From Marinoscillum furvescens DSM 4134 (GTDB lineage: Bacteria > Bacteroidota > Bacteroidia > Cytophagales > Cyclobacteriaceae), in the NCBI RefSeq assembly GCF_003386095.1, contig NZ_QREG01000010.1, positions 1 through 64,000 of the forward strand: 64,000 nucleotides of DNA, written 5' to 3'. Below are positions 4,165 to 57,811 of the stretch, piece after piece (the first letter of the stretch is position 1; the number at the start of each line of letters is the position of its first letter). The translations under genes were made by a program, and so were the position numbers. A model generated the notes under the pieces. The model worked only from the letters and a program-made list of their open reading frames with translations. It had not been told where the DNA came from and searched no databases.

Positions 4165-4179
4165 CATACTGTACCTTCC
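4165..4179 (-). promoter_or_regulatory. Copy of recurrent upstream element
   Basis: In gene sense the sequence is GGAAGGTACAGTATG, 13 of 15 positions matching the window consensus GGTAGGTACRGGATG. It lies about 75 bp before the ATG of the first G8 gene. The consensus was built by eye from the upstream regions in this window. Confidence 0.55.
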
Positions 4180-4263
4180 GGCTTTATGCTCTGTCAAGTA
4201 TCGTTCTAAAGGAGTCTGGCATAAATGTCAGACAGGTATATGAAATGAAGCGCAATGTAAAAG

Positions 4264-4293
4264 GCGTCATTTTGAAGGGGTTCAAAATGACGC
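4264..4293 (-). terminator. Stem-loop terminator after GH78
   Basis: A perfect 13-bp inverted repeat (GCGTCATTTTGAA at 4264-4276, complement at 4281-4293) has a 4-nt loop. On the minus strand it is followed by CTTTT. It sits 24 bp past the stop of the GH78 gene ending at 4317. Confidence 0.8.
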
Positions 4294-4316
4294 ACTTTTG
4301 ATTTATTCAGGAGTGC

Positions 4317-7145
4317 CTATAACACTGATTGGAAGGAGTATTTCCCAGACCCCACTTCAAATACCTGATAGATTCCATCTCGCCCCAGGACTTTAATTGA
4401 TTCATTATCTATGGTTTTTCCACCTTCTTTAATAGGAGTTCCTTCTTTGGATATTACATAGACCTTGGCTTTGGTGTTTACAGGTATTTCTACCTCTAGA
4501 GTGTATGCTGAACCATCAACTTTCCAAGATGACACTATTTTGCCATTAATAGACCCATATTTACCACGTGCATTAGTGAGTGCATTATTTCCAAGTTCTG
4601 GTTTAATAACGATATTCTTAAAACCAACTCCATTTTGGTCTATGCCTGCAATATTGCTAAACAAGTACTGTCCAAAAGCACCAAAGGCATAGTGATTGAA
4701 GGAATTCATTTTAGCATTCATGGCTCCATTATACCCATCTTCGGGTGTCCAGCTATTCCACCTTTCCCAGATGGTAGTTGCACCATGCTTTACCTGGAAT
4801 CCCCAGCTAGGGTAATCTTTATTGAGAAGAATTTTGAAAGCAATATCTGACCTTCCTATAGATGATAGAGCTGGAAGCAACTGTCGGATTCCCAGAATTC
4901 CAGAGGTTGGCAGGTTGTCGTTGGCAGTAATGAGGTCAATAAGGTGCTTACCGGCCTTTTTTTTCAGGTTGGTAGGGAGTACATCGAAATATATAGCTGT
5001 AGCATAGGCTGATTGAGTGTGTCCAGTAAAGCCCCGTTCGCCTTCAAAGTACCCCTTGCCATCTCCGTATTTCGACTCATCGACGTGAATTCGACCGTCC
5101 TTACTAAGATAGTGTTTGATGAAAGCATTTACTGATTCATCATAGATGCTCTTATACCGTTCGGCATTTTTCTTTTGTCCAATTGCAGTACTCATTTCAG
5201 ACATACACCGAAGTACATGTTGAAAGTATAATGAAGCCAAAATATCATGAGATGTGTGCTTTTCGGTCATTTCTAACCAATCTCCAAATCCTCCCCGCGG
5301 TTTAGCATCATCCCATGAATCTTCTGGATAGAATTTATGCTCAGCACTTTTTTGGATGTGATATTCGGTGAATTTGGTCATCGATTCATAGTGTTTTTCG
5401 ATGATTTTGGTGTCGCCATAAAACTTATAGGTATTGTAAGGTACCATTACACCCGCGTCCATCCACCCTGGAGAGTACCAAACTAGTTTTGGGTATGGCC
5501 GAGGGGCAAATACGGAGTAGGGGCCTAAGTCATATTGTGCATCCCTTAAGTCTGTGAACCACTTTTGATTAAAAGCACCCAAAGTGGCATTGTATAATGC
5601 CGTCCTGGAAAAGATCTGTACATCACCTAGCCACCCTAATCGCTCATCTCTTTGGGGGCTATCCGTGGGAACTTCCATGAAATTGGAGCGTTGAGTCCAG
5701 ATGATATTTTCATACATTTTGTTCAATACTTTGTCGGACGAACTGAATGTGCTCACCATGGGGATTGACGACCCAAAGGGAATACCCGTGATTGTACTAG
5801 ATTCCGGTTTAGATTTCAGGCCGCTTACCTCTACATATTGAAACCCATGATAGGTGAATTTTGGCTCCCATATTTCTACGCCATTTCCCTTAAGAATGTA
5901 AGTGTCTGTGGCTCTGGCAAATCGCAAATTTTCCGTCATCAAAGAGCCGTCATCATGGAGCCGCTCACCAAAACGCATAACGATGGTGTCTCCCTTGTTG
6001 CCCTTAACATTTAGCCTTGCATGACCGGCAAAGTTTTGACCAAGATTAAATATGTATTTACCATGCTGTGGTTCGGTAATTTCAATAGGGGTGATTTCAT
6101 TATAAACCTGGATGCTGTTGCCTGGGTAAGCTTGTAACTTACCTTCGGTTCCCTGGTGTAGGTAAGCGTTTGCCCATTTAGAGTCATCAAAGCCGGGCTT
6201 ATTCCAGCCGGAGGGTTCAAGATTGGCATTATAGGTTACACCCATCAACAAATCAGCTGATATAAAGGCGCCTTCACTGGCCTTCCAGCTTTCATCTGAT
6301 GCTACTGTAATTTTTTCGCCGTTTTCATATTCTACCTCGAGCTGACAAAAAAGTGCAGGATGCACACCGTACAATTCTCTGTTTCTTGGGTTTGACAATT
6401 CTTTGGGCCCAACATAGCCGGCATACCACCCATCTGCAATGATTGCTCCCAGAGCGTTTTCACCTGATCTCAGGTTGTCCGTCACATTGTAAGTCTTGTA
6501 ATAGATTCGTTTATTGTAGTCAGTCCAACCAGGTGTGAGCAGATCATTGCCAATTTTATTTCCATTGATAGACATTTCAAAAACACCCAGTGACGTTACA
6601 TACAGTGTGGCGTTTTTAATCTTACTATTTACGTTGAAGGATTTTCTTAAATACGGTGCAGGCGGAAGATGCAGTGGATCTGTTGGATTCTGGTCAGAGG
6701 TCTTATATCCGATCCACTTTGCTTCCCAGTCTTCCTTATCTAGCAATCCCATCGACCACATACCCACTTGGCTCCACTCTGAAGCCTGATTATTTTCATC
6801 CCAAACCCGAACCTGGAAAAAACAACTCTGTCCAGAGCTAAGCGGTTTGCCTGCATAGCGGACATTGGAGTTTTGGTTTGAATTTTGTTTACCTGTATTC
6901 CACAGAAGGCTTCTCTCAGATTCGAGATTTTTTTTAGAGGTGGCCACTTTAATTTGATAAGCCGTTTGAATTTTATTTCTCCCGGAAGAGGACATAACCC
7001 ATGTTAGGCTTGGCTCTGGGTCATCGATACCCAACGGATTCTCGAAATAATTCACGGTGATTTTTTCTATGGAAATCGGATCGTTCGTATTTGTACAAGC
7101 AATGAGTACTAACCCTAGCAGAATTAGATATAACGTATTTTTCAT
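4317..7145 (-). CDS. Alpha-L-rhamnosidase, GH78, lipoprotein
   Basis: A 942-residue exo-alpha-L-rhamnosidase expected to release terminal L-rhamnose at the cell surface or in the periplasm. It begins with a lipoprotein signal (MKNTLYLILLGLVLIAC). GH78 domains follow in usual order: N-terminal Ig-like domain, beta-sandwich Bac_rhamnosid_N (about 160-330), alpha-L-rhamnosidase domain (about 340-450), (alpha/alpha)6 catalytic barrel (about 460-820) and a C-terminal beta domain. The general-acid motif PQRDERLGWLGD places the key Glu near residue 501, and the base motif TTIWERWNSW places it near 794. The frame stays open to a TTG at 7184, but the ATG at 7145 directly precedes the lipoprotein signal and is preferred. 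It appears monocistronic, divergent from the operon at 7422. The paralogue at 10038 has the same architecture. Confidence 0.93.
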   Translation of the reverse strand: MKNTLYLILLGLVLIACTNTNDPISIEKITVNYFENPLGIDDPEPSLTWVMSSSGRNKIQTAYQIKVATSKKNLESERSLLWNTGKQNSNQNSNVRYAGKPLSSGQSCFFQVRVWDENNQASEWSQVGMWSMGLLDKEDWEAKWIGYKTSDQNPTDPLHLPPAPYLRKSFNVNSKIKNATLYVTSLGVFEMSINGNKIGNDLLTPGWTDYNKRIYYKTYNVTDNLRSGENALGAIIADGWYAGYVGPKELSNPRNRELYGVHPALFCQLEVEYENGEKITVASDESWKASEGAFISADLLMGVTYNANLEPSGWNKPGFDDSKWANAYLHQGTEGKLQAYPGNSIQVYNEITPIEITEPQHGKYIFNLGQNFAGHARLNVKGNKGDTIVMRFGERLHDDGSLMTENLRFARATDTYILKGNGVEIWEPKFTYHGFQYVEVSGLKSKPESSTITGIPFGSSIPMVSTFSSSDKVLNKMYENIIWTQRSNFMEVPTDSPQRDERLGWLGDVQIFSRTALYNATLGAFNQKWFTDLRDAQYDLGPYSVFAPRPYPKLVWYSPGWMDAGVMVPYNTYKFYGDTKIIEKHYESMTKFTEYHIQKSAEHKFYPEDSWDDAKPRGGFGDWLEMTEKHTSHDILASLYFQHVLRCMSEMSTAIGQKKNAERYKSIYDESVNAFIKHYLSKDGRIHVDESKYGDGKGYFEGERGFTGHTQSAYATAIYFDVLPTNLKKKAGKHLIDLITANDNLPTSGILGIRQLLPALSSIGRSDIAFKILLNKDYPSWGFQVKHGATTIWERWNSWTPEDGYNGAMNAKMNSFNHYAFGAFGQYLFSNIAGIDQNGVGFKNIVIKPELGNNALTNARGKYGSINGKIVSSWKVDGSAYTLEVEIPVNTKAKVYVISKEGTPIKEGGKTIDNESIKVLGRDGIYQVFEVGSGKYSFQSVL

Positions 7146-7230
7146 GTTTGACTGTATTGATTTAATTCTAAAGCCTGAGTCCAAAAATCAGTTTGAACGT
7201 GCTAAAGATGCCTTAATATGTCAGGCTTTA

Positions 7231-7245
7231 CATCCCGTGCATTCC
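7231..7245 (-). promoter_or_regulatory. Copy of recurrent upstream element
   Basis: Gene-sense sequence GGAATGCACGGGATG (12 of 15 to consensus), about 85 bp upstream of the GH78 ATG at 7145. It lies in the divergent intergenic region that also serves the operon at 7422. Confidence 0.5.
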
Positions 7246-7293
7246 TGCTCTTTCTGAAATTTTTATTACATAATTAACGGAATTATATGGGCA

Positions 7294-7308
7294 TGCATCT
7301 GCAGGATG
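7294..7308 (+). promoter_or_regulatory. Weaker copy of recurrent upstream element
   Basis: Plus-strand TGCATCTGCAGGATG matches the consensus at 10 of 15 positions, best in the TGCAGGATG half shared with the copies at 25702 and 17662. It is about 115 bp before the ATG at 7422. Confidence 0.35.
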
Positions 7309-7421
7309 CCATCTCTGCAATCATTAAATAGTTTTGAGATAGTTTGCCTCAATCAGCTAGTTTATACTAGTCAGAAAACTCGAAGTTTGGATTTTAAATA
7401 AATGCTCACGCAATTTTTAAC

Positions 7422-9083
7422 ATGAAAAGGATTTATCTGATAGTGATTTTTGTATTCTCTACCTTTTTGCTTTGTGCACAATCAAAGCCTTTGTACGCAT
7501 TTGATTTCAAAATGGAGCATATTCCTCTGCCAGAAAGGACTGCTCTGCTGGTAGAGGAGGGGTACTCAGGTGTTACGTTCGCTATGAAAAATGACGACCA
7601 GATTAAGAAGTACAATGACTACCTAAGTACAGTTGAAGCGAAAGCGGGTGCATTTTCAGTGCCGGTGGTTTACTTCCCGTATCATTTTCATCAAAGTGCC
7701 GAGGTTCAGCAAAGGCAGTGGGAAAAGGTTTTGGATGTGCCTTCATTAAAAAATGTCTGGGTCATTTTTGTAGATAGAGATTCTACTGCTACACAAAAGG
7801 AAATAAAAGAAAAGCTGCGCTATATGGCCCAAAGTGCTATGAGTGAAGGTAAGAACCTTATCATATACCCGCACGATAAAACCCTAATTGAATCTACGGA
7901 AGAGGCACTACCATACATTCAAGAATTAGGTATGTCAAATCTATATGTAACTATGCATTCATGCCATGAGATTCGAGCTGGAAACGGGAGTCGCATGCTA
8001 GAGGTAGCGATTAAGGCGGCTCCATATCTAAAGTTTGCATCTGTAGCTGGTAGTGATGTGACTATGCATTCCACGGGATCAGCCAACTGGGCGGATGCTA
8101 TCCAACCTTTGGATGCGGGGGATTATGATATAGCTCAGTTTGTCTATGCGCTAGACAAGATCAGGTACGATGGAGAAGTATTCCTGCACACCTTTGGGTT
8201 AGAAGAAGAGCCGAGAGAACATCTGAGCAGGTCCATGAAGAAATGGAATGAAATCAACCGAACACTACCATCATCGTCTAAAAACATTTCGGATATTCTG
8301 GACGCTCCTGAAAATGCCTACTTTGATCAGGGCTCACAGTCTTGGTTTATCTCTAGTCTGGGCGGGGGTAAAGTGACTATTGAAAAAGACGGTTATGGTT
8401 GGATAACCAGACTAAACAATAATTTGGAGGTGGTTGCTTCAAGGTGGGTGGATGGTTTAGATGCCCCTACAGGCATGACATCCCACGAAGGATATCTGTA
8501 TGTTACAGACAGAGGAGTACTGGTGAAAATCAGCATAGCTACTGGTGAGATCCTGGAAAAGATTGAGTTACCCGGCGCTCGATTTCCCAATGACGCAGTT
8601 GTAGCAGCAAATGGAGATATCTACGTTTCTGAAACTTATGACAACACCATTTATAAAATCGGGAGTTCTGGAAAAGCAGAGGTTTGGTTAAAACTTAGAG
8701 CTTTAGAATGCCCCAATGGATTGTGTGTAGATGGCAACCAGTTAATTGTAGCGACCTGGGGACCAATGACCAATGAGGCAACTTTCGAAACAAGTAGAAA
8801 GGGGACCCTGAAGAGCATTAACCTTAAGACGAAGGAGATCAATAACATTGGCAAAGGCCCCATTGCTAATTTCGACGGAGTAATTAAGTTCAAAAAACAT
8901 TATTATGCTACCGATTGGGTAGGGGGGCGACTATTAAAAATCACCAAATCTGGAGCAGTTACGGAGGTTTTGACAGGATTCAATCAGTTTGCTGATTTGG
9001 GAATTGACCTGGAGCGCGGAATCATTGTCGTACCTGAGATGAGTAAAAATAGATTCATTAAACTAAATCTGGAGGGCTTATAA
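7422..9083 (+). CDS. Secreted TIM-barrel / SMP-30-like beta-propeller fusion
   Basis: A 553-residue protein with a signal peptide (MKRIYLIVIFVFSTFLLCAQ). Residues about 25-285 resemble sugar-phosphate isomerase/epimerase-type TIM barrels. Residues about 290-553 form an SMP-30/gluconolactonase or NHL-like beta-propeller, with repeated blades such as FPNDAVVAANGDIYVSETYD and ECPNGLCVDGNQLIVATWG. SMP-30 relatives hydrolyse sugar lactones, and xylose-isomerase-like barrels act on sugars; no activity can be fixed here. It is the first gene of a plus-strand operon with a DUF1080 protein (20-bp gap) and a GH78. A role in processing released sugars or oxidised sugars outside the cytoplasm is inference. 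Confidence 0.65.
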   Translation: MKRIYLIVIFVFSTFLLCAQSKPLYAFDFKMEHIPLPERTALLVEEGYSGVTFAMKNDDQIKKYNDYLSTVEAKAGAFSVPVVYFPYHFHQSAEVQQRQWEKVLDVPSLKNVWVIFVDRDSTATQKEIKEKLRYMAQSAMSEGKNLIIYPHDKTLIESTEEALPYIQELGMSNLYVTMHSCHEIRAGNGSRMLEVAIKAAPYLKFASVAGSDVTMHSTGSANWADAIQPLDAGDYDIAQFVYALDKIRYDGEVFLHTFGLEEEPREHLSRSMKKWNEINRTLPSSSKNISDILDAPENAYFDQGSQSWFISSLGGGKVTIEKDGYGWITRLNNNLEVVASRWVDGLDAPTGMTSHEGYLYVTDRGVLVKISIATGEILEKIELPGARFPNDAVVAANGDIYVSETYDNTIYKIGSSGKAEVWLKLRALECPNGLCVDGNQLIVATWGPMTNEATFETSRKGTLKSINLKTKEINNIGKGPIANFDGVIKFKKHYYATDWVGGRLLKITKSGAVTEVLTGFNQFADLGIDLERGIIVVPEMSKNRFIKLNLEGL

Positions 9084-9103
9084 CTCAGGATAAACCAAAC
9101 ACA

Positions 9104-9973: not shown

Positions 9974-10037
9974 AGCACGATTGGTTCGAGAGGGCTTTTG
10001 GTGTTCTAGTTTATTAAAATTTAAAGTGATTACAAAT

Positions 10038-17446: not shown

Positions 17447-17498
17447 ATTGATAGTGTTTTAGTTAGCCTGCAATGAAACTTATAAAATGATAAATTCT

Positions 17499-17513
17499 CA
17501 TCCCGTACCCACC
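17499..17513 (-). promoter_or_regulatory. Copy of recurrent upstream element
   Basis: Gene-sense GGTGGGTACGGGATG, 14 of 15 to consensus, 53 bp before the ATG of the second G8 gene. The divergent spacer 17447-17726 holds this copy and the one at 17662. Confidence 0.6.
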
Positions 17514-17661
17514 CGTTGATTGTGTTTTTATCAAATTTTCAGTTTTATAAGTTTTTGATTGATTATTTATAAAATCGTCATGCCAAGTGCATGTCTTTGA
17601 GGAGTCGCCAATTTGGAATGGGCAGTTGAGTGTAATAGCCTGATGGTTTATTTGGTACACC

Positions 17662-17676
17662 TGTATGTGCAGGAAG
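17662..17676 (+). promoter_or_regulatory. Copy of recurrent upstream element
   Basis: Plus-strand TGTATGTGCAGGAAG, 11 of 15 to consensus, about 50 bp before the GH105 ATG at 17727. Confidence 0.42.
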
Positions 17677-17726
17677 GCTGAACTCATGGTTTTGGCTAGA
17701 ATTGTGTCCAAATAAATAATTACTAG

Positions 17727-21168: not shown

Positions 21169-21218
21169 TTATTTCAATTTTTTAGTCGAGTGAAATAACA
21201 AACTTGGTTTCAAATATC

Positions 21219-21233
21219 CATACAGTACCCACA
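21219..21233 (-). promoter_or_regulatory. Copy of recurrent upstream element
   Basis: Gene-sense TGTGGGTACTGTATG, 11 of 15 to consensus, about 51 bp before the ATG at 21168. The 421-bp spacer 21169-21589 holds this element and the terminator at 21420; no gene is supported there. Confidence 0.5.
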
Positions 21234-21419
21234 TGCTATGTAGCCTGTGATCACACCAAAAAAATGGAGCTACAGGTCTTAAGGTCGATATGAACAGTAA
21301 GGAGAAGGAGCACATGATCAGCACGGTGAAATAATGCTGTCTTAAGTGAATTTTTGACCATAAATAATGAGAAAGCTAATACTAATGGTTTTGTCGTGCA
21401 CGGTGTTCCAATGCACAGA

Positions 21420-25042: not shown

Positions 25043-25054
25043 ATTATCATTGTC

Positions 25055-25627: not shown

Positions 25628-25701
25628 TTGTCCAACTCCAGAAATTGAGTCAGGGAAAGAAGAATCCTAATTACTAATTTATATTTTGGGTTTGCGAAGT
25701 T

Positions 25702-25716
25702 TATCCTGCACGTACC
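25702..25716 (-). promoter_or_regulatory. Copy of recurrent upstream element
   Basis: Gene-sense GGTACGTGCAGGATA, 12 of 15 to consensus, 75-95 bp before the possible starts at 25627 and 25606. The 166-bp gap after the DUF1080 gene at 25794 supports a separate promoter here. Confidence 0.5.
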
Positions 25717-25793
25717 TGAACGGCCATATCCAGTTGAAGTAATAATACATACTCGGATGGCAGGCTAGCTCCAGTTTGTACCACTGAGAAGAA

Positions 25794-33467: not shown

Positions 33468-33541
33468 TGCTAGAGACAATTTGTTTTTGAAGGCGACTAA
33501 TGTGGCCCAACTGCTAATTAATGCAGGCTATTTCTAATAAC

Positions 33542-33556
33542 CATCCCGTAGATTCC
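33542..33556 (-). promoter_or_regulatory. Copy of recurrent upstream element
   Basis: Gene-sense GGAATCTACGGGATG, 12 of 15 to consensus, about 75 bp before the ATG at 33467. The gene remnant described next stops where this element begins. Confidence 0.5.
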
Positions 33557-33891
33557 CGGTTGGGAAAAGCGTAAAAGCATTGAGACGATATTTTTCCATT
33601 CTCTCATTGCACACACAAACTCTGCATTATTTCGTTGCGCATCCCAATGATTTGTATCGTGATACGCAAACTGTTCTGCCGATTCTGGGTTGAGGTCATC
33701 GAAGACTCCTTGCACCAATTGGGAGTTGATAGGCAATCCTTCTATTTTATAGCTTTTCCAGTTCCTGCCTTCATAGGTTGGTTTGCCATTGATAAGAAAT
33801 TGTTTTCCCTTAATGCTCACTTTTGATTGGGCAGAGAGGTGCATCCAGGGATGTGATAGAAGGGTTAAAATGATGCAATTTTTTTCATCAT
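33557..33891 (-). pseudogene. N-terminal remnant of a secreted glycosidase-like gene
   Basis: About 100 codons of a protein start. The text KVSIKGKQFLINGKPTYEG followed by VQGVFDDLNPESAEQFAYHD and NHWDAQRNNAEFV looks like the N-terminus of a TIM-barrel glycosidase-like family (from memory, low precision). Two ATGs (33891 and 33888) precede a run of seven A; the frame that would give a signal peptide needs one more A, suggesting a slip in the homopolymer. At the other end the sequence loses its frame and runs into the regulatory element of the next gene. The longer open frame to 33976 starts with TTG and is not believed. No catalytic residues remain. Confidence 0.6.
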
Positions 33892-41884: not shown

Positions 41885-42369
41885 CTATGTAGGTATTATT
41901 CTTAAACTGTTTTTTTGATATGAAGTAAAAATGGCGGATCTAAATAGTTTTCGCATCCCGTACCTACCTAACAGGAGTTTAAGCACGAATAGGAGAAGTT
42001 TTGGTCAAGGGGATAAGATCTGCCCACAAATAGAAGTAAGAACCCTTATCTGAAACGCAAGAATTTGATGCGTCTAAGTCGCACTGGTGATAACTTGATT
42101 GGCGTGTTTATTAGTAATCTTTTGATAAATAATAGCCAATTGATTTTATTTCAATTTATGACGCTATCAATTCAACCTGCTGTTTGGTGATAATTATTTC
42201 AATAAACAGAAGTAAAACCGTGTATATTTATAATTATGTCATCATCCGGCAGGTAGGGGCAGGATGAAAACGTTTGGGCCCTTCACTAGAATTAAGCTTG
42301 ATTTTAACCCGGGCAATTGGCTGGGTGTCTCAAAGATGTACTATTAACTACCAACTTAAATTTTAAATC
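41885..42369. promoter_or_regulatory. Divergent promoter region between the DUF5722 fusion and susC
   Basis: 485 bp with no supported gene. It holds two copies of the recurrent element, one facing each way. Minus strand, 41954-41968: GGTAGGTACGGGATG, an exact match to the consensus, 69 bp before the ATG at 41884. Plus strand, 42252-42266: GGTAGGGGCAGGATG (13 of 15), 103 bp before the susC ATG at 42370. No clear TAnnTTTG Bacteroidota promoter was found consistently at either side. Confidence 0.55.
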
Positions 42370-45300
42370 ATGGGAAAAAATTACAGGATTTTATTCCTAC
42401 TTGGATTGATGCTGTGTCTGAAGGGATACAGTCAGGAGGTCCAGGTTAAAGGTAAAGTGACCTCTTCTTCTGGAGAGGAACTGCCCGGGGTTACTGTTAT
42501 CGTGGAAAACAAGACTGGGGATGGGGCCACATCAGGAACTATAACTGATATAAACGGTAGCTACAGCCTAAAGGCTGATGTAGGATCAATATTACAATTT
42601 TCATTTGTTGGCTTTCTATCAAAAAGTATTGAGGTTAAATCTCAAACAAACATTGATGTAACACTAGAAGAAGATTTACAGCAATTGAATGAAGTAGTGG
42701 TTGTGGGCTATGGCGAACAGAAGAAGAAAACAGTTGTCGGTGCTATTGAGTCTATTTCTACGGATAAAATAGTTACATCTCCTACCAGCAACTTACAATC
42801 GGGTTTGGCTGGGAAGATTCCGGGAATGACTATCCAAATTAAGGATGGCGAACTCGGGTCTGAAAATGTACAGATGCTCATCAGGGGGCAGGCGACATTG
42901 AATAATTCAGCGCCCCTTGTTCTCGTAGATAACGTAGAGCGTAGCATGAACAATTTGGATCCTTATGAAATAGAGTCTATATCTGTTCTAAAAGATGCTT
43001 CTGCTACTGCCATTTTCGGGGTAAGAGGAGCCAACGGTGTAATTCTCATCACAACAAAGAAAGGGACGCCAGGTAAAGCGAAAGTGACGGCCAATGTAAA
43101 CTATTCGTTGCAAGCGCCTACAAGATTGCCTCAACCATTGGATGCGGTAAGCTATATGACTTTAAGAAATGAAGTTATTGAACAGCACAATGACGCAACC
43201 GGCCAATCCAATCCATTGGAATTTGGTGAGGACGTGTTTCAGGCTTATGAAAACAATATTCTTCCTGAGTACTATGTAGATCGTAACTTTTATGATGAGT
43301 TTTTACATGACTATGTACCAATGCTTCGTAGCAATGTGAACATAAGCGGGGGTAGTGATAAAGTAAAATACTTTACGAGTATTGGATACCTGAGTCAGGG
43401 AGGGCCATTTAAAACAGAAAAATGGGATGAGTACAATTATGACAATGAGCAACGTCTGAATCGCCTGACTTACCGTGCAAACATTGATTTTCAAGTTACA
43501 AAAGGCCTAAAAGCGTGGTTGAACTTATCCGGTTTCTTACAGGATAAAAATGATCCAATTGTTTTTGGAGCTAACCAATCAGCGGCTACTACTGCTTCTT
43601 TCTATTTTCTTCAAATGGCCTCATTTGCAGATATACCAGCTATTTCTTATCCGGACCTAAACAGTTTGGGGCAAGTGGTGAGTGTAGCGGGGCAGGATCG
43701 AACACCCTATGGTAACCTCAACAGAACCGGGTACAGAGTGACAACCACTAATTCATTAAATACTTCTATAGGTCTTGAACAAAACTTAAACGCCTTAACT
43801 AAAGGACTAAGTGCCAGGGTGCTTGTTTCCTATGATGCGAATGCTTCGCATATCAGAGGTTTCAGAAGAACTTACCTGACCTATAATGCTTCTATTGATG
43901 ACACTGGTGGAGAGTCTGTTGTTAATTACACTCCGGCGGCCGGAGCGGATATTGAGTTGGTTCCTGTTTTAACCCAGGGACATGGCTCAAACTTTGACAT
44001 GCAGTCTTCGCTAAACTATAAGCGTAGTTTCGGAATTCATGATGTGACGGGGCAATTCATGTATCTGCAGAGTCAGCGAACCACTAATATTCAGGTTCCT
44101 TTTAACTATGTAGGACTTGTGGGTAGGATGACCTATGGATACGATAGTAGGTATCTGGCTGAAATGAACTTTGGTATGAATGGATCTGAGCAATTTGCCA
44201 AGGGCAGACGCTTCGGGTTTTTCCCTTCAGTATCACTGGGATGGGTTCTCAGTGAGGAAGGTTTCATGAAGAACCAGTCGCTCGTCGAATTTCTTAAAGT
44301 ACGGGGATCTTATGGTATAGTAGGTAACGATAAAATATCAAATAGTCGATTTCTTTATGTAGGAGACTGGACACAAGGTCAAGGTAATTATTTCGCGGGT
44401 CTGGGAGGTGTTCCTGGTTTGCCAAATCCCGTATATCAAAGAACAATACCCAATGAATTGGTGACATGGGAAGAGGCTGCTAAAACTAATATTGGATTAG
44501 ATCTCAATCTTAGAGGTGGCATTCGGTTAGATGCAGATGTTTTCTATGAGAAAAGAAATTCCATTCTTATTAATAATAGCCCAATTCCCTCAGGAATGTT
44601 TGGTCAGCAGGGACTTCCTCCATTAAACGAAGGGGTAATGGAGAACAAAGGTTTTGAAGTTGCCTTAGGTTATGATTCCAAATTAGGTCAGAACGGAAGA
44701 TTCTCAACCACATTCACAACCTCCTTTGCGCGTAACAAGGTAATCAACTACAATGAGGTGGCATTGGATGCAGACTTTGCATATCGATATCGTGTTGAAG
44801 GGTATTCAAGAGGTACGGCGTTTGGTTACCACAACCTTGGTTACTTTGAAAGTCAGGAAGAGATTGATGGCTGGGCCGATCAGTCAGGCCTAGGAGGAGT
44901 TGTTCGCCCCGGAGATTTGAAATATGAAGATTTAAATGGCGATGGCATCATAGATGTACGTGATCAGAAGCCTATGGATTATCCTAATGTTCCAGAGTTG
45001 AACCTGTCCTATAGTTTGTCGGCTAACTATAAGGGTTTTGATATGAGCCTTTTATTCCACGGAGTGACTAATTACTCCTTTGATATATCAGGTAGAGGGG
45101 TTTACGATTGGAATGGAAATGCGTATGGTAACTACAAAAACTATTTTGAACACCACCAACAAGCATGGTCAGAAGAGCGAAGAGCCAATGGAGAGAAAAT
45201 TGTATATCCAAGGTTGCACTTCGATGGTGTCTCGGTGAGTAAGCAGCCGAGCGACTACTGGATTCAGAATCTGTGGTTTGTTCGCTTACGAAACATTGAG

Positions 45301-45489
45301 TTTGGTTACACCATTTCTAAGCAATTCCTTTCACCAACAGGAATAGATCAAGTGAGAGTTTTCTTCAATGGACAGAACCTTTTCCTATGGGATAATATGA
45401 AGTACGATGTAATGGATCCGGAAGTGTCTAACTCACTAAGTCACCCGATTTTCAAAACTTTCAATATCGGAGCTAACATCACCTTTTAA
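42370..45489 (+). CDS. susC: SusC-like TonB-dependent outer membrane transporter (pair 1)
   Basis: A 1039-residue outer membrane transporter for oligosaccharide import. Signal peptide, then a CarboxypepD_reg-like domain (about 22-105, VKGKVTSSSGEELPGVTVIV), a plug domain (GVRGANGVILITTKKG near 220) and a 22-strand beta-barrel ending FNIGANITF. There is no N-terminal STN signalling domain, so direct control of an ECF sigma factor is unlikely. The susD gene follows 20 bp downstream; together they form the uptake complex. First gene of a five-gene plus-strand operon. The name indicates family membership only. Confidence 0.95.
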   Translation: MGKNYRILFLLGLMLCLKGYSQEVQVKGKVTSSSGEELPGVTVIVENKTGDGATSGTITDINGSYSLKADVGSILQFSFVGFLSKSIEVKSQTNIDVTLEEDLQQLNEVVVVGYGEQKKKTVVGAIESISTDKIVTSPTSNLQSGLAGKIPGMTIQIKDGELGSENVQMLIRGQATLNNSAPLVLVDNVERSMNNLDPYEIESISVLKDASATAIFGVRGANGVILITTKKGTPGKAKVTANVNYSLQAPTRLPQPLDAVSYMTLRNEVIEQHNDATGQSNPLEFGEDVFQAYENNILPEYYVDRNFYDEFLHDYVPMLRSNVNISGGSDKVKYFTSIGYLSQGGPFKTEKWDEYNYDNEQRLNRLTYRANIDFQVTKGLKAWLNLSGFLQDKNDPIVFGANQSAATTASFYFLQMASFADIPAISYPDLNSLGQVVSVAGQDRTPYGNLNRTGYRVTTTNSLNTSIGLEQNLNALTKGLSARVLVSYDANASHIRGFRRTYLTYNASIDDTGGESVVNYTPAAGADIELVPVLTQGHGSNFDMQSSLNYKRSFGIHDVTGQFMYLQSQRTTNIQVPFNYVGLVGRMTYGYDSRYLAEMNFGMNGSEQFAKGRRFGFFPSVSLGWVLSEEGFMKNQSLVEFLKVRGSYGIVGNDKISNSRFLYVGDWTQGQGNYFAGLGGVPGLPNPVYQRTIPNELVTWEEAAKTNIGLDLNLRGGIRLDADVFYEKRNSILINNSPIPSGMFGQQGLPPLNEGVMENKGFEVALGYDSKLGQNGRFSTTFTTSFARNKVINYNEVALDADFAYRYRVEGYSRGTAFGYHNLGYFESQEEIDGWADQSGLGGVVRPGDLKYEDLNGDGIIDVRDQKPMDYPNVPELNLSYSLSANYKGFDMSLLFHGVTNYSFDISGRGVYDWNGNAYGNYKNYFEHHQQAWSEERRANGEKIVYPRLHFDGVSVSKQPSDYWIQNLWFVRLRNIEFGYTISKQFLSPTGIDQVRVFFNGQNLFLWDNMKYDVMDPEVSNSLSHPIFKTFNIGANITF

Positions 45490-45509
45490 TCAGTCTAAAG
45501 AGAAATAAA

Positions 45510-47366
45510 ATGAACAAATACATATATAAATCGATATTTCTTCTTGCTTCGGTTTTAATGCTTTCTACCGGATGTGAGGATACTTTTGATCAGGCTTTGG
45601 ATAGAGCAGATGATTCAAGAGAAACTTTGGATGGAGTACTGGGAGACCCTGATAAGGTAAGAGGAATGTTGACGGCCGTGTACATGGGTATGCAGCAGGA
45701 TAGAACCGACCTCTATTTTTGGTCAACACAGGAAGCTTTGACTGACAATGCTTTTGACTCACAAGGTCAGAGTATAGAAAATTGGAGAACAGGTCAATTG
45801 TCTCCTCAAAATGCAGCAGCTTGGGTAAGTAAGAATGCTGGTAATTCTTACTCCAATCCTAACTGGTCATGGTGGGGCAGATACTGGGGAGCTATACGTC
45901 ATTGTAATACATTCATTGAGAATTTTGATGCTATTACTGTTCCTGAGGATGATTTGCCGATGAGCGAAAGAGAGTTGATGTTGGATGAGGCTATTGCGAT
46001 GAGGGCATATTTCCATTTTATGCTCATTAGTTACTACGGGCCATTGCCATTTCTTGATGAGAATCCATCCGTGAATTTTGGTGGGTGGTCTGAAATGACG
46101 CGACCGACTTTTCAGGAGATTACAGATAAAATTGTGGCTGAACTCGACGAGGTTATAAGCAGAGGTAACATACCCATGAGAAGGGACCCTAATTCAAATG
46201 ACGCTTACCGAATACCTATGGGCTTTATTCATGGGCTTAAAACCAGAGTACTCCTGTATAATGCGAGCCCACTAAACAATCCATCGAATGACCCGACAAA
46301 GTATCAGGCAGCAGCAGATGCAGCCAAAGCATTTTTAGATTTGGGACAATATTCGTTGGTGGATTTTGAAGACCTTCCTTCACTTTACAGGTCTCCGTTT
46401 GCTCAGGTCATGGGTTCAACTGAGGTTATTTGGGCAAGTAGAAGTCGTGCCAATCAGTTGACAAATGTTCACGGTATGGATGGAAGTACGGCAGTACCTA
46501 AGTTCAGCAACTTCCCGGCGTTTAAAGCTGGAGAAACACCCACACAGGAAGCTGTAGATGCTTATGAATTGAGCACAGGTGAACTTGTAATAGAGCAATA
46601 TGACCCCACTCATGCCAACCCGACTTTTACAGCTGAAGCACTGGCGGCCGGGTATGATGATGTAAATGCACCTTATGCCAACAGAGACGCCAGATTCTAT
46701 AAGGATATTATTTTCAACACAAGTGATCATTTTGGCGAGTCGTTCGGTCTCGGGACTATTCAGGTATATACCTACTTTGGTGCTCCGGGTACAGGAACAA
46801 ACGGCAACGCCGTGACCGGTGACAGGAAAAAGACCTACACCGGATACTATTTTGGCAAGGATAGAAACCCAATTTGGTATGGCGAAGGTAGTGGGTCAGG
46901 ATCAGGAAATGGTAGAGCCTATTCGCACCAGCTCTATATGAGGATAGCTGAGGTATACCTCAACTATGCAGAAGCGCTTTGCGGAGCAGGAGAGTTGGAG
47001 CTGGCTGCAGATGCTCTTGACATGACAAGGGTCAGGGCTGGTCAGCCGCCTATCCGTACGGTGCCAGGGTATCAAGCTACTCAGGACTATTTGATGATGC
47101 GAATACGAAATGAGCGACGCGTGGAGTTAATGGTGGAGGACAGCAGATTCTTTGATGTGAGAAGATGGGATGTCATTAGCGACGATCAGGTAAACACCAT
47201 CAGCGGAATGTTGGTTGAGCAGGTTTCACCAGGTGTATATACGCACACCCGTTATCAGATGCCATGGCTATGGTTATGTCACAACGAGAAGTACAAAGTC
47301 TTGCCAATACCTCAGCAAGATAAAATATTACTTCCTGCAATTGATCAGCCCGAAGCGTGGCAATAA
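45510..47366 (+). CDS. susD: SusD-like glycan-binding lipoprotein (pair 1)
   Basis: A 618-residue surface lipoprotein (MLSTGC lipobox at about 17-22) of the RagB/SusD family. It caps the SusC barrel and binds glycan. Typical features: early EALTDNAFDSQGQSIENW, TPR-like helices with EAIAMRAYFHFMLISYYGPL, and the C-terminal YMRIAEVYLNYAEALCGAGE and RNERRVELMVEDSRFFDVRRW segments. It overlaps the TTG/GTG-extended frame of the next susC but not its likely ATG start at 47393. Confidence 0.95.
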   Translation: MNKYIYKSIFLLASVLMLSTGCEDTFDQALDRADDSRETLDGVLGDPDKVRGMLTAVYMGMQQDRTDLYFWSTQEALTDNAFDSQGQSIENWRTGQLSPQNAAAWVSKNAGNSYSNPNWSWWGRYWGAIRHCNTFIENFDAITVPEDDLPMSERELMLDEAIAMRAYFHFMLISYYGPLPFLDENPSVNFGGWSEMTRPTFQEITDKIVAELDEVISRGNIPMRRDPNSNDAYRIPMGFIHGLKTRVLLYNASPLNNPSNDPTKYQAAADAAKAFLDLGQYSLVDFEDLPSLYRSPFAQVMGSTEVIWASRSRANQLTNVHGMDGSTAVPKFSNFPAFKAGETPTQEAVDAYELSTGELVIEQYDPTHANPTFTAEALAAGYDDVNAPYANRDARFYKDIIFNTSDHFGESFGLGTIQVYTYFGAPGTGTNGNAVTGDRKKTYTGYYFGKDRNPIWYGEGSGSGSGNGRAYSHQLYMRIAEVYLNYAEALCGAGELELAADALDMTRVRAGQPPIRTVPGYQATQDYLMMRIRNERRVELMVEDSRFFDVRRWDVISDDQVNTISGMLVEQVSPGVYTHTRYQMPWLWLCHNEKYKVLPIPQQDKILLPAIDQPEAWQ

Positions 47367-52101: not shown

Positions 52102-52142
52102 AGACAAGCTGTGGTTTTTTAGAACGATTTAGATCCAATAAA

Positions 52143-53885
52143 ATGAAAGAAATAACTAAAATAAATTTGCTTTTTGCACTCCTTATTTTGTTTGTCTGGA
52201 GCTGCAAAGATGAAGAGGTTAGTGCCATTGATCCCATGATTGACGGGATACTTACACAGGTAGAAGGCTCAGTAGATATCACTGTTGCAGGCTCAAGCTG
52301 GAATTCAGCCCTTGTTGGATTGAGGTCAGAAAGATTGAGACTGGTTACGGTAAAGGACCTAATTGAAAGTGGTGGATATGAGACTTCAACCTATAAGCTG
52401 GCCAAGTCAGATGAAGCACTGGCAAGTACCAACACTACTATTGCCTACGTGGAGTCAAAGATGGATTCTATTTGGGATACCAACATCACTCAACCATTCG
52501 AATCTGTAGATGATGAATCACTTGGAGTGATCAATTTTGGTAGCAAACAATATACCGCGACATCTCTCAAGGCAGATTCGATCGAGACCTGGCTTTATCT
52601 GGACTCAGATGTTGAATTTACTTCAATTGACATGGCATCCCTTCAATCTGACATTGCTGTACTGCAAGGACTGTCTGATTTGGATGGAACCGAGGTGCAA
52701 GCTTTTGTTGATAAAATCAATGCTGACTATGCACAATTGGAGCAAGATTATCCGACTATAGCCAATGAGGTGCAGACCGCCCCTGAATTCTCGAAAGCGC
52801 AAAAGGATCTGTACGCAGGACTGGACGCAAGAATCACAGCTGTGGGCAATACCATAGAAAATGAACTGTCTCTTGATACAAGAATAGAACTTGACGCAGT
52901 TTTGAGAGATATGTACGCCTTGACTTACTTCGTAGACAACAACTATACGTCACCGGCTCAGGAACCTGCTGTATTTGGTGAGATTTCAAGTATTACCGAA
53001 CTGCGTTGGTTCAGTGAAGAGGCTACTCAGGAGCAGCTGAACAACGATTGGGTACTTACCACAGACATAGATGCTGCAGAAACCGCACGATGGAACCTGG
53101 ATGATCCGGATGGTAGGTATGGCTTTCATGCAATTCTTGAAACGGTTTCCATTAATTTCGATGGCCAATTTCATATGATCTCCGGATTGCGTATGTCCAG
53201 GATGGCCGGTCCTCCGAACGAGCGAACTGGAGTGTTTAATAATATCGATGGTGGGTCAATACGTAACCTTGGTCTGATAAACTTTAGGATGGTAACGACC
53301 AAACAGCTGAATGGGGGACAAGGCGGTACATTGGTTGGTCAACTTAATAATTCAACTGTGTCAAAGTGTTTCGTGCAGGGCTCATTCGTGGACATGGGAA
53401 GTCAACAAGGTGGTTTTATCGGACGTCCGCAAAATGGAGCTGTTATTTCCGACTGCTTTGCGAAAGTGGAAATATCCGGGAAAAAAGCTAATCCGTTTGA
53501 ATCAAGCTTTATTGGACTGCCTGTTAGTGCGCTGACTGTACAGAACTGTTATAACCTTGGAGGAGGTACTCAAAAAGCAATATTCGGTCATGGAGCCAAT
53601 ATTATTTTGACGGCATCCGGCATATACTACGACTCAGATGCTGTTGGCACAACTGTGTTAGATCGTGGGGCCGGCGCCTACAACGGGGGAACCCCAGTGA
53701 TGCTTTCTGATGCAGGGGTGGTGACAGACTTACCAACCTCTGATTGGGGTAACCTTTCTAACTTCTCAGGTTGGAGTGCTGATACCTGGGAAATTAGAAC
53801 TGAGCCCCAGTTTGACCCGAACCCAAGACCTTATCTCAAAGGGTTTAACTATGAGGCTATAGCGGACTTTATCGACGTGCCATAA
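52143..53885 (+). CDS. Surface lipoprotein with GLUG-like repeats, in SusE/F position
   Basis: A 580-residue lipoprotein (signal MKEITKINLLFALLILFVWS followed by Cys). The frame opens at 52092, but this ATG directly precedes the signal. The middle (about 60-280) is helical, with coiled-coil-like stretches (VQAFVDKINADYAQLEQDYP). The second half holds GLUG-type repeats (GGTLVGQLNNSTVSKCFVQG, GGFIGRPQNGAVISDCFAKV) that build a beta-solenoid. I do not recognise it as SusE or SusF, but its place after susD and its lipid anchor suggest a glycan-binding partner of the transporter. Last gene of the susC operon; a terminator follows. Confidence 0.8.
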   Translation: MKEITKINLLFALLILFVWSCKDEEVSAIDPMIDGILTQVEGSVDITVAGSSWNSALVGLRSERLRLVTVKDLIESGGYETSTYKLAKSDEALASTNTTIAYVESKMDSIWDTNITQPFESVDDESLGVINFGSKQYTATSLKADSIETWLYLDSDVEFTSIDMASLQSDIAVLQGLSDLDGTEVQAFVDKINADYAQLEQDYPTIANEVQTAPEFSKAQKDLYAGLDARITAVGNTIENELSLDTRIELDAVLRDMYALTYFVDNNYTSPAQEPAVFGEISSITELRWFSEEATQEQLNNDWVLTTDIDAAETARWNLDDPDGRYGFHAILETVSINFDGQFHMISGLRMSRMAGPPNERTGVFNNIDGGSIRNLGLINFRMVTTKQLNGGQGGTLVGQLNNSTVSKCFVQGSFVDMGSQQGGFIGRPQNGAVISDCFAKVEISGKKANPFESSFIGLPVSALTVQNCYNLGGGTQKAIFGHGANIILTASGIYYDSDAVGTTVLDRGAGAYNGGTPVMLSDAGVVTDLPTSDWGNLSNFSGWSADTWEIRTEPQFDPNPRPYLKGFNYEAIADFIDVP

Positions 53886-54760: not shown

Positions 54761-56278
54761 TTATTGTCTTCTTGGGATGCTTCTTGGATCTCCGATATCA
54801 TTGGTTACTTGCATCCAATTAGTTAAAGCCGCTTTCATTTGATCCACCTTGAAGCTGAATTCAGGGTTTAATGACAGGTTTCTTGTTTCGTGAGGATCAT
54901 TTTCCAGATCATATAGCTCAAATTCTGTACGAAACATGCTGTTTTTTAATAGCTTATAGGCTAAGGGATACTCGTCCTTATGAAATATGATCTCTTCAAA
55001 GGCGTTGTTTTGCCATGCATCGCTAGGGGTGGCATCCCAGGGCATCCAGGCTAAAGCTCGTGGTTGTTTTCGAGCATTTTCAGCTGTGGCATATGAGTCA
55101 ATATCTACCTTGGGTACGTTTTGATAATTGATGTTCCACATCAAACGATACTTTCCATCTGTAATACTTCGGGTAGGGTAATATTCTTTGGGTGCCGGAC
55201 CATGTGCATTGTGCTCCGAAACCATATATTTTCTCCCAAGAGTTTTGCTTTTTCCTTCAAGTATTGGACGAAGGGACAAACCTTGTACCGTTTGAGGGAT
55301 GTCTAAACCAGCGAAATCCAGCACCGTGGGCATAATATCAACATGACCAATAAGGTCTTCCGAGATTTGGTTAGATAGTATGCCAGGCCCGGTGATGGAT
55401 AGAGGCACATGCACGCCCCAATCGTATGCCGTGGCTTTGGCCCGGTGATAACAAAAACCCTGGTCACTGGAATATATGAAAATGGTATTGTCCAGAAGTC
55501 CGGCATCTTTCACGGTTTGAATGATAGCTCCAATGACTGAATCGGCATGCTGAACCGTGGTGAGATACTCTGCATAATCCTGCCTTGTTTTAGGGGTGTT
55601 GGGCCAGTGGGGCGGGAGTTCCACAGAATCCGCATGAACACGAGGCAATTCCTTGTTTATTTTGATGTGTGACTGAAAAGGCCTGTGGGTGTTGTCCACA
55701 TTGGCTTGGATAAAAAATGGCTTTCCATTGGCAGCTGTGATAAAGTCTTTCATGGCCTGAGCACTTCCGGAAGGTTTTAAGTTGGCCTTGTCACGGAAGT
55801 CAAAAGGGAATTTCCAGACAGGACTCAAATGCCATTTTTCTGTTATACCTGTGAAATACCCATTTTGCTTGAGCACCTCAATCAAGGTCGGTATATCCTC
55901 GTGTACTCCCACTTTGTCGATCTTGGAGCCATTACGGGTAAAGTCTACATCCGGGGCATTTAGGCCAGGGGTTACGGTGTTCCGCCAATGTCCATTGGAA
56001 TGTGGGTACATCCCAGTCAGGATAGATCCCCTTGACGGGGCACATGATGCAGCTGAAGCATATGCCTTTGTGAAGAAGGTGCCTTTTTGAGCAAGCGCAT
56101 CTATATTCGGCGTTTTAAGGCCGGGTACTCCCAACATGCCAAGGTGGTAGGATTGGTCATCCGTAAGTAGCAGGACAAAATTTGGTTTACGGTTTTCAGG
56201 TTGCTGAGAGCAGCTGACCAGTTTCAGTATAAAGAATATGAATACGGTGAATATGATAGGTCTCTGAATTCTTTTCAT
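54761..56278 (-). CDS. S1-family sulfatase, lipoprotein
   Basis: A 505-residue sulfatase (lipobox KLVSC23). Motifs: PNFVLLLTDDQSYHLGMLG, SAASCAPSRGSILTGMYPHS with Cys79 as the formylglycine site, EKWHLSP and IFIYSSDQGF. The ending YDLENDPHETRNLSLNPEFS is typical of the family. Its ATG overlaps the TGA of the preceding sulfatase gene by 4 bp (ATGA), so the two are translationally coupled. CAPSR-type sulfatases include heparan- and ulvan-type desulfating enzymes (general knowledge). Position of sulfate removed unknown. Confidence 0.92.
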   Translation of the reverse strand: MKRIQRPIIFTVFIFFILKLVSCSQQPENRKPNFVLLLTDDQSYHLGMLGVPGLKTPNIDALAQKGTFFTKAYASAASCAPSRGSILTGMYPHSNGHWRNTVTPGLNAPDVDFTRNGSKIDKVGVHEDIPTLIEVLKQNGYFTGITEKWHLSPVWKFPFDFRDKANLKPSGSAQAMKDFITAANGKPFFIQANVDNTHRPFQSHIKINKELPRVHADSVELPPHWPNTPKTRQDYAEYLTTVQHADSVIGAIIQTVKDAGLLDNTIFIYSSDQGFCYHRAKATAYDWGVHVPLSITGPGILSNQISEDLIGHVDIMPTVLDFAGLDIPQTVQGLSLRPILEGKSKTLGRKYMVSEHNAHGPAPKEYYPTRSITDGKYRLMWNINYQNVPKVDIDSYATAENARKQPRALAWMPWDATPSDAWQNNAFEEIIFHKDEYPLAYKLLKNSMFRTEFELYDLENDPHETRNLSLNPEFSFKVDQMKAALTNWMQVTNDIGDPRSIPRRQ

Positions 56279-57750
56279 TTTTGACTGTTTGGAGTTTGAA
56301 CCACGTGTTGCTCTCCGGGTTTGAAATTGTATTTAATGTTGTTGCCGCCAGCATTCAGTATCAGGTTGAATTTATCCAGATAAAAGGAGCGATCCCTGAA
56401 GGGGAAGTCCCCGATATCTATTAATTGCGTTTGCAGCGCACTATGCAACTCCGCCTGCTTTTGTGCATAGGTTGCGGAGTTAACCAAATTATTAAGCTGA
56501 AATGGATCTGACTGGTTATCAAAGAGCATCAATGGCCCGTCCAGGCCCACTACGTATGTGAATCGTTTATTGCGCACCGCCCGATACTCTGGATCTTTCA
56601 TATTTATATCGAATGGGTGAATGTTCATAAACATAGCTGCACGATCTGCGTTAGGGTCACAAGTTTTAATGAGATCAGATATATCCTCTCCCTGAATACC
56701 CTCAGGACGGGCAACCCCCGCAAAACTCAGGAGTGTGGGCATGATATCTGGTGTGGTGATGCCTGCATAAAGCTTCTTGCCCTTGTTATTGTCGATAGCA
56801 GGGTAGTGAATGAGGAATGGAATGTTGCTTGACTCGTTCCAAGGGAGTTGTTTTCTGAATGGATACCGGCCATGCGCGCCCATCATTTCACCATGATCAG
56901 AGGTGAAGATGATGATTGAGTTGTCATACATATCAGCTTCCTTGAGTTGAGAAATGATATCTCCTACAGCTTTATCTGTAGCTGTGCAGTGTGCGTAATA
57001 TCCTGCAAGTTCCCTTCTCACTGTGTCGTACAGGTTTTTGGGAACATTTGGGTCAATTGAAAAATCTTTGCCTTGATAAAGCCGTCGGTATTCCTCTGGG
57101 GCAGAATGGTGTGGGAAATGAGGGGTCGCCAGTGAAATAAACATAAACTGCGGTTTATTGGCTTGCCTCTTGTTTTTTACATAGTCATTTACATCATTCG
57201 CTATCGCAAAAGGGGAATATCCAGTCCATATTTTTTGAGTAGGGTCGTCATTTTCATAATAGATCATTCTATTGTAGTTATGAGAACACTCAGCTCCTTT
57301 CCAATACTCAAAACCTTGCCTGCGTTTTGGGGCTACATTTACTTTCCTGCCATGTCCATCCAGGTGCCACTTTCCCCAAAATGCCGTCTGATAACCTTCA
57401 TCCTTTAGCACCTCCGCCATTGTGGTTTCATCATCCGGGAAGTGGAGGTCATTTAAAAACATGCCGGTCTCGGTTGGGAATTTTCCGGTGAGAAGAGATG
57501 CTCGAAAAGGCGTGCAAACCGGAGAGACGGAGACCGCATTAGGTAGGTTCACTGATTGCGCTGCAAATTCATCCAAATTTGGAGTTTTCACATCCTCATT
57601 GCCATTGTAACCTAAAGCCGAAGCTCTCCATTGATCAGTGAGAATAATGATCACGTTTGGCTGCTTAAGCTCCACTTTTTGACATGAAAGCAACAGCAGG
57701 ATACAGAACAAGATGATTGGTATATGAAGTGTGTTGATTTTGAGGCTCAT
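56275..57750 (-). CDS. S1-family sulfatase, lipoprotein
   Basis: A 491-residue sulfatase (lipobox LLLLSC23). Motifs: PNVIIILTDQWRASALGYNG, SPVCTPFRASLLTGKFPTET with Cys79 as the formylglycine site, GYQTAFWGKWHLDG and IIIFTSDHGEMMGAHGRYPF. A phenylalanine in the variable position of CxPxR and the TDQWR segment mark it as a different subfamily from its neighbours. First gene of a two-sulfatase unit with the gene at 54761. Confidence 0.92.
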   Translation of the reverse strand: MSLKINTLHIPIILFCILLLLSCQKVELKQPNVIIILTDQWRASALGYNGNEDVKTPNLDEFAAQSVNLPNAVSVSPVCTPFRASLLTGKFPTETGMFLNDLHFPDDETTMAEVLKDEGYQTAFWGKWHLDGHGRKVNVAPKRRQGFEYWKGAECSHNYNRMIYYENDDPTQKIWTGYSPFAIANDVNDYVKNKRQANKPQFMFISLATPHFPHHSAPEEYRRLYQGKDFSIDPNVPKNLYDTVRRELAGYYAHCTATDKAVGDIISQLKEADMYDNSIIIFTSDHGEMMGAHGRYPFRKQLPWNESSNIPFLIHYPAIDNNKGKKLYAGITTPDIMPTLLSFAGVARPEGIQGEDISDLIKTCDPNADRAAMFMNIHPFDINMKDPEYRAVRNKRFTYVVGLDGPLMLFDNQSDPFQLNNLVNSATYAQKQAELHSALQTQLIDIGDFPFRDRSFYLDKFNLILNAGGNNIKYNFKPGEQHVVQTPNSQK

Positions 57751-57796
57751 ATGCTAAAAAAGTAAGTCACAACTTATTTGTTCATACATTTATTTC

Positions 57797-57811
57797 CACC
57801 CTGTAGGTTCA
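57797..57811 (-). promoter_or_regulatory. Weak copy of recurrent upstream element
   Basis: Gene-sense TGAACCTACAGGGTG, 10 of 15 to consensus, strongest in TACAGG and most like the copy at 33542. It lies 46 bp before the sulfatase ATG at 57750, in a 218-bp gap after the GH78-like gene. Confidence 0.35.

Follow-up and report, generated by a model that had tools for sequence, protein, structure and literature searches.

A promoter-spaced direct repeat in a rhamnose-linked polysaccharide locus of Marinoscillum furvescens and a GntR/LacI-type protein as its probable reader

Which regulator commands a large polysaccharide utilization locus whose transcription units share one short upstream element? 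This question is raised by bases 1 to 64,000 of a 196,160-bp contig (NZ_QREG01000010.1, hereafter C10) in the 5.96-Mb genome of Marinoscillum furvescens DSM 4134; this whole stretch of 64,000 nucleotides, which begins at the contig end, is called the window below. The locus is a Bacteroidota-style polysaccharide utilization locus and encodes a SusC/SusD pair, two GH78-type rhamnosidases, a further rhamnosidase-like protein, a GH106 rhamnosidase, and a GH88 protein, together with several sulfatases, a DUF5722 protein, and two G8/CEMIP beta-helix proteins. This enzyme set, with its rhamnosidases and sulfatases, points to a substrate that is probably a rhamnose-rich sulfated polysaccharide. An earlier note, made from the DNA letters, had described a 15-bp element before nearly every unit and had taken it for a shared regulatory site. 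We found that the shared site is real but that the actual element is longer, a 17-bp direct repeat plus a -7 promoter box at a fixed distance, and we consider it probable that this element is the binding site of a rhamnose-sensing GntR/LacI-type regulator (C10:73270-74322) activating a regulon for rhamnose-rich sulfated polysaccharide.

All 11 copies listed in the earlier note were found at their positions. The 15-mer close to GGTAGGTACRGGATG had nine matches in the window at three mismatches or fewer, against a mean of 1.88 in shuffled sequences, and 0/100 shuffles reached nine. Seven of these matches are listed sites, and the other two (2706 and 53190) were discarded as sites, both lying within open reading frames (ORFs). 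The listed sites at 7294, 17662, 21219, and 57797 match the 15-mer at only 10 to 11 of 15 positions. The distance to the start codon, given earlier as 45 to 115 bp, was recomputed as 46 to 113 bp from the ORF ends, with the first possible start codon taken as the start. In the whole genome, the 15-mer alone was not enriched (250 matches versus 268 in the reversed control); the word by itself is not diagnostic, would not have survived the refutation test set out in the earlier note, and was dropped as a genome scanner. A one-mismatch match at C11:29373 was also discarded, being inside a 370-amino-acid ORF. On our reading of the ORF list, two units of the window, 25794-26516 and 26701-28167, have no site facing them. 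A weaker copy with a TACCTTTG box (score 18.4) was seen at 26540-26584 on the plus strand, pointing rightward, against these two neighbors.

The anatomy of the element was derived from 15 C10 sites, i.e., the 11 in the window and four outside it (64470, 64549, 70728, and 73036). Its consensus, CA[GT]G[TA]AG-GT[AG]-C[AG]GGATG, forms a direct repeat of 17 bp whose two 7-bp halves are arranged as 7-3-7, with a 10-bp period that sets them one helical turn apart. The two 7-mers match at 3.9 of 7 positions on average, and per-base repeat agreement was 0.55 at period 10 compared with 0.13 to 0.38 at periods 6 to 9 and 11. The best inverted symmetry of the block was 0.42, below the direct-repeat agreement, so that the block does not look like a palindromic operator. 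By eye, some Flavobacteriaceae copies appear to be a direct and an inverted repeat at once. A C stands two bases 5' of the 15-mer in 11 of 12 aligned sites (the 11 listed and C10:64551) and in 14 of the set of 15. Apart from this C and its neighbor, no column above 0.6 bits was found in the 45 bp 5' of the 15-mer; thus, neither a second repeat block nor a periodicity of about 21 bp was detected there.

On the other side of the block, the alignment is conserved at +36 (T), +37 (A), and +41 (T), in agreement with a -7 box of the Bacteroidota type, TAnnTTTG, lying exactly 20 bp past the 15-mer. For the 11 listed sites, the box match averaged 4.36 of 6 positions at spacer 20 and no more than 2.64 at the other spacers from 0 to 44, and none of 20,000 random intergenic sets equaled the spacer-20 score at any spacer (null maximum, 3.27). 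The spacing and the upstream C support even the weak listed sites, independently of the 15-mer. This box has been placed at -12 to -5 in Flavobacterium psychrophilum (PMC9723704), and because we took it at that position, the block comes to lie at about -49 to -33 with its center near -41. Provided that the box position given in that report applies here, the block shows the fixed position and orientation beside the core promoter, near -41, that characterize a class II activator site.

The two-part pattern of block and box gave 38 matches versus 13 in the reversed control over the whole genome at three mismatches or fewer, and 13 versus 0 at two or fewer. C10 holds 11 of the 13, spread from 4138 to 73052; one of the remaining two is inside an ORF on C9, and the other, on C20, precedes a sulfatase gene and is the only intergenic one outside C10. 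Sulfatase and GH78-type rhamnosidase genes lie downstream of it (C20:130497-136858), and this cluster is likely a distant member of the regulon. When the 17-bp part was used alone, with a matrix trained on the same 15 sites, the 15 top-scoring places on the 196-kb contig were the 11 listed sites and the four outside the window, all intergenic and all facing a gene. In leave-one-out tests with the block alone, each site ranked between 3rd and 33rd among about 392,000 positions (the other 14 sites being counted among the better ones), and the weakest site, 57797, ranked 25th when the -7 box was added. A family-wide search with the two-part pattern yielded 0 to 9 matches per genome outside the own genome, among the matches listed, and was not used as a regulon count.

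The earlier note had also expected the cognate regulator to be encoded nearby, outside the window, and this agrees with what lies to its right. One predicted site outside the window, which is among the 11 C10 matches of the two-part pattern at two mismatches or fewer, precedes rhaEW (C10:70860-73082), the gene for a bifunctional rhamnulose-1-phosphate aldolase/dehydrogenase that scored 934.6 bits with TIGR02632, above the cut-off of 567.75. Divergent from rhaEW, and 9.3 kb past the window, C10:73270-74322 encodes a 350-amino-acid protein with a GntR winged helix at residues 18 to 81 (PF00392, 53.7 bits against a cut-off of 27). The protein alone matched the winged helix only. A profile of 28 orthologues matched the Protein Data Bank (PDB) arabinose repressor at both ends, 4egy for the winged helix and 3tb6 for the effector domain, and the matches for a LacI/GalR-like C-terminal domain were 2qu7, 3tb6, and 3hs3. 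Besides, the structural model of the Maribacter stanieri orthologue (mean predicted local distance difference test score, 91.9) resembles LacI-family sugar-binding repressor structures. Both the profile and the model exclude the protein of the window organism itself. Judged by these orthologues, which supply the predicted C-terminal half, the candidate regulator is a GntR/LacI chimera, and it is presumably cytoplasmic. A GntR paralogue in the same genome, on C34 (33% identity), has no above-threshold site in its 20-kb stretch.

Relatives of this protein were then searched for the site. A protein match at an E value of ≤0.001 occurred in 88 of 118 genomes of the family, a large share of these matches covering the winged helix only. 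The named GntR loci retrieved, the best 80 of 117, include loci of Leeuwenhoekiella, Maribacter, Flavobacterium, Emticicia, Hymenobacter, Pontibacter, Dyadobacter, Fulvivirga, and a Saprospiraceae metagenome-assembled genome. With a matrix trained on C10 only and a threshold of 16, the site was present in the 730 bp upstream of the GntR gene in 23/80 loci versus 28/1580 control windows (Fisher p 1.3e-18); the control windows came from the same loci and contain some genuine targets, for example the sites before SusC. Six thresholds were tried in all, and the counts were 28/80 versus 35/1580 at 12 and 13 versus 19 at 20. The 17-bp part alone, at a threshold of 15, gave 42 matches in 96 stretches (the 80 named and 16 others, near-identical loci being counted separately), of which 33 faced a gene, 7 were inside ORFs, 1 pointed away, and 1 had no gene. 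At least 4 of 6 -7-box positions were present at spacer 20 in 25 of the 33 gene-facing matches. Any such box was found at spacers 10 to 30 in 31 of them, and spacer 20 was best or equal best in 22, equally good spacers being credited to 20. Intergenic matches with one possible target only faced the gene in 17 cases and pointed away in 1. According to BLASTP against the window proteins, the targets next to GntR genes, among the matches listed, were rhaEW, SusC, GH106, GH78, DUF5722, and one sulfatase, and in several Flavobacteriaceae the site adjoins the GntR gene where its neighbor is not rhaEW. Orthologues with a site close by are numerous in both Cytophagales and Flavobacteriaceae. A matrix refit on GntR-flanking DNA with the -7 box included, which is descriptive only, had 102 of 113 matches before a same-strand ORF and 8 of 113 inside ORFs, among the matches listed. 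By the refit matrix only, the GntR gene of four Flavobacteriaceae loci (L237, L246, L254, and L255) has a CTAGTAGGGTCTAGTAG-type site directed at it, which suggests that the gene may be autoregulated in those bacteria.

The rhamnose genes themselves were surveyed in 30 rhaEW loci, the best matches in the family. A site was found in 26 of the 30 (20 genera), so that the rhamnose-gene site is conserved across genomes. A GntR gene lies within 1.5 kb in 14 of these 26; in the other 12 (8 genera), the GntR match of the genome is further off or on another contig. The promoters of some of the 14 had fed the refit matrix, whereas those of the 12 had not. The site is missing from four loci: the second copy of the own genome, which is on C1; the orthologue of this copy in G088, a genome from the same genus; and the loci of G049 and G113, both from one other genus. 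Three of them (own genome, G049, and G113) are flanked by an AraC gene; the G088 locus has neither an AraC nor a GntR regulator in the 20-kb stretch examined, and the full-length GntR matches of G049 and G113 are only 32% identical. This contrast fits the GntR protein as the reader and is suggestive; more weight attaches to the enrichment near GntR genes and to those Flavobacteriaceae loci in which a GntR gene has the site beside it but no rhaEW. The C1 copy belongs to a second rhamnose-type set (C1:58034-64928), in which rhaEW is joined by isomerase-like and kinase-like genes that score below the curated NCBIfam cut-offs. The set lacks the site and is accompanied by an AraC gene in divergent orientation; the genome may hold two differently wired rhamnose pathways. 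Site, spacing, orientation, target genes, regulator-family domains, and conservation of the site with the regulator were all observed computationally, and a shared regulatory site, as claimed in the earlier note, is supported by the two-part pattern, the promoter spacing, and the conservation beside the regulator.

We propose that the GntR/LacI regulator would act at sigma-A promoters by binding the 17-bp direct repeat, which is centered near -41 and always separated from the -7 box by 20 bp. Inside the cell it might sense rhamnose, or a catabolite, freed by the rhamnosidases of the locus itself, and would then turn on 15 predicted C10 promoters serving SusC/D import, GH78/GH106 rhamnosidases, sulfatases, and rhamnulose-phosphate aldolase.

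The same protein and sites could also work in the opposite sense, as a repressor that covers the -33 region and is released by rhamnose. AraR of Bacillus subtilis, which responds to arabinose, is a repressor of this kind, consisting of a GntR winged helix and a LacI/GalR effector domain and binding a palindromic operator. The candidate resembles AraR in its two-domain architecture: the orthologue profile matched the PDB arabinose repressor in the winged helix as well as in the effector domain. At spacer 20 the site also reaches with its last bases into the expected -33 region, and repression is favored because it is the usual mode of the AraR-like family. However, repressor sites usually differ in position and can work in either orientation, whereas the site here keeps exactly 20 bp and one orientation, and it is a direct repeat before rhamnose and polysaccharide genes rather than a palindrome before arabinose genes. 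The lack of TTG at spacers 18 to 21 in all 15 sites speaks weakly against repression, since 0/8 control promoters had it too. Activation is favored because spacing and orientation are fixed; it appears clearly the likelier mode, and repression by the GntR protein is in our judgment unlikely.

The earlier note had suggested a hybrid two-component system (HTCS) or AraC-type regulator, and such a protein encoded elsewhere might read the site, with the GntR gene as a bystander by rhaEW. Y_Y_Y-domain matches number 28 in the genome, and 16 lie in frames of >1,300 amino acids, a size typical of HTCS proteins; in addition, an ORF at C10:101184-102041 looks AraC-like by eye, and the sites described for these classes are direct repeats before polysaccharide utilization operons (PMC3878776). 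Their repeats, however, are spaced by about 21 bp in the HTCS and AraC-type rhamnose sites described (PMC3878776 and PMC3870299) and by 67/77 bp for SusR (PMC3878776), as against the 10-bp period here. Moreover, the three AraC-flanked rhaEW loci, from two genera, lack the site, and the site adjoins the GntR gene even where the neighbor is not rhaEW. The suggested classes are not supported, the linked regulator being of the GntR/LacI type, and we consider a reader of the AraC or HTCS kind quite improbable. A fixed spacing to a downstream box would also be found if the block were the -35 part of a promoter for an extracytoplasmic function (ECF) or other alternative sigma factor, but ECF -35 elements do not resemble a direct repeat of 17 bp, and the site is found beside GntR genes. 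The downstream box, moreover, is of the sigma-A TAnnTTTG type described in PMC9723704, and the probability of an alternative sigma promoter seems very small. Even less credible, to the point of being negligible, is a chance likeness of short words picked by eye; the 15-mer alone is not enriched in the genome, but the independent spacing signal, the out-of-sample sites before sulfatase and rhaEW genes, and the conservation across genera oppose it.

Several results weigh against activation by the GntR/LacI protein. At threshold 22 the enrichment beside GntR genes was gone (1/80 versus 18/1580), and 57 of the 80 named loci fell below threshold 16 with the C10-trained matrix, in part because of lineage-specific site forms such as CAGTATAGTACAGGATA and CTGGTAGGTACTGGTAG, which were seen after the refit. 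No strong site was found beside the gene in the close orthologues of G032 (62% identity) and G088 (49%). The rhaEW contrast is thin on its site-less side, which consists of four loci from two genera, and the AraC gene is divergent from rhaEW only in the own genome, being tail-to-tail downstream in G049 and G113. Besides, inverted repeats are the usual targets of GntR regulators, repression is the mode of the best-known AraR-type member, and the TTG count, with only eight controls, says little of an absent -33 box.

With the GntR/LacI protein taken as the activator, a broader reading can be put forward tentatively, with about even confidence. An undescribed Bacteroidota branch of GntR/LacI chimeras may have switched from repression to class II activation, binding head-to-tail on an asymmetric direct repeat at -41 and sensing one intracellular monosaccharide, and may thereby command a whole multi-operon sulfated-polysaccharide locus plus distant operons; the site would have varied by lineage (CAGTATAGTACAGGAYA, CTGGTAGGTACTGGTAG, CAGGTAGGTACRGGATG) while the 10-bp repeat and the 20-bp spacer were kept. 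Such a branch would do the job usually given to HTCS, SusR, or ECF systems. HTCS and SusR-like regulators are membrane-bound sensors, whereas the protein here has no such sensor. GntR-type control of a marine polysaccharide system has a parallel in AusR of Zobellia, reportedly a repressor of alginate use from another GntR subfamily. Among rhamnose regulators, the AraC, DeoR, and LacI families are treated in PMC3870299, in whose main text "GntR" does not occur, and the RhaR of Bacteroides is given as AraC-type in PMC3878776. The RhaR/RhaS regulators of the former report likewise govern rhamnose catabolic genes, and its DeoR-type RhaR sites are also direct repeats with a 10- to 11-bp period; the regulator here differs in being a GntR protein with a large polysaccharide locus in its regulon. 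FucR (BT1272) and ManR (BT2103) are GntR regulators of monosaccharide pathways in Bacteroides, likewise of the Bacteroidota (PMC3878776), but the reconstructed FucR regulon is, by its description there, one catabolic operon, compared with 15 predicted promoters here that include SusC/D and sulfatase units. GntR regulators for other sugars have been described in other bacteria (PMC5507952), as has an AraC-type regulator of a carrageenan regulon (PMC5698469). No report of a GntR rhamnose regulator or of this site in Bacteroidota was found in titles and abstracts, a search that left most subscription papers and RegPrecise outside. For the degradation of rhamnose polymers in several Bacteroidota families, the findings supply a regulator, a site, and a promoter grammar that can all be tested, and they would allow scattered polysaccharide genes, e.g., the C20 sulfatase/GH78 cluster, to be assigned to one substrate from sequence alone. 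The case also implies that a weak word found by eye can be tested via its distance to the promoter.

The sites of the window, the SusC/SusD pair, and one further unit of the predicted regulon are collected in the table.

Table. Predicted sites of the window and units of the predicted regulon (window positions; N20, 20-bp spacer)
Feature	Coordinates	Strand	Context
17-bp site (4165-4181) + N20 + -7 box	4137..4181	-	before G8/CEMIP protein 374-4090
site + N20 + -7 box	7203..7247	-	before GH78-type rhamnosidase 4317-7184
site + N20 + perfect TAGTTTTG -7 box	7292..7336	+	before unit 7422-12830 (has GH78-type rhamnosidase)
site + N20 + -7 box	17471..17515	-	before G8/CEMIP protein 13322-17446
site + N20 + -7 box	17660..17704	+	before GH88 protein 17727-18836
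weaker site + N20 + weak box (3/6)	21191..21235	-	before unit 18907-21168
site + N20 + -7 box	25674..25718	-	before unit 21590-25627
site + N20 + -7 box	33514..33558	-	before unit 28529-33479
exact 15-mer + N20 + -7 box	41926..41970	-	before DUF5722 gene and sulfatase, unit 34923-41884
site + N20 + -7 box	42250..42294	+	before SusC/SusD unit 42370-53885
weaker site + N20 + -7 box	57769..57813	-	before unit 54761-57750 (two genes; sulfatase by Pfam at 54761)
SusC/SusD pair	42370..47366	+	one predicted target unit of the regulon
rhamnosidase-like (57969), GH106 (59744), sulfatase unit	57969..64000	-	site just beyond window, C10:64442-64486

Some proteins of the locus deserve mention in their own right. 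The two large G8 and CEMIP beta-helix proteins, both on the minus strand, carry type IX sorting tails; human CEMIP is hyaluronan-depolymerizing, and the two are its relatives by domain. Five proteins, all on the minus strand (19405-21168, 21590-22570, 25055-25627, 29625-31379, and 31383-33479), had no Pfam match at an E value of 0.001 and are candidates for new carbohydrate-active functions. On the same strand, 33518-33976 and 34021-36125 consist of ORF fragments that by eye have the look of broken genes; one of them spans the 33542 site, and in the other the ORF 34021-34581, which has a tail like those of type IX secretion, is separated from 34923-36125.

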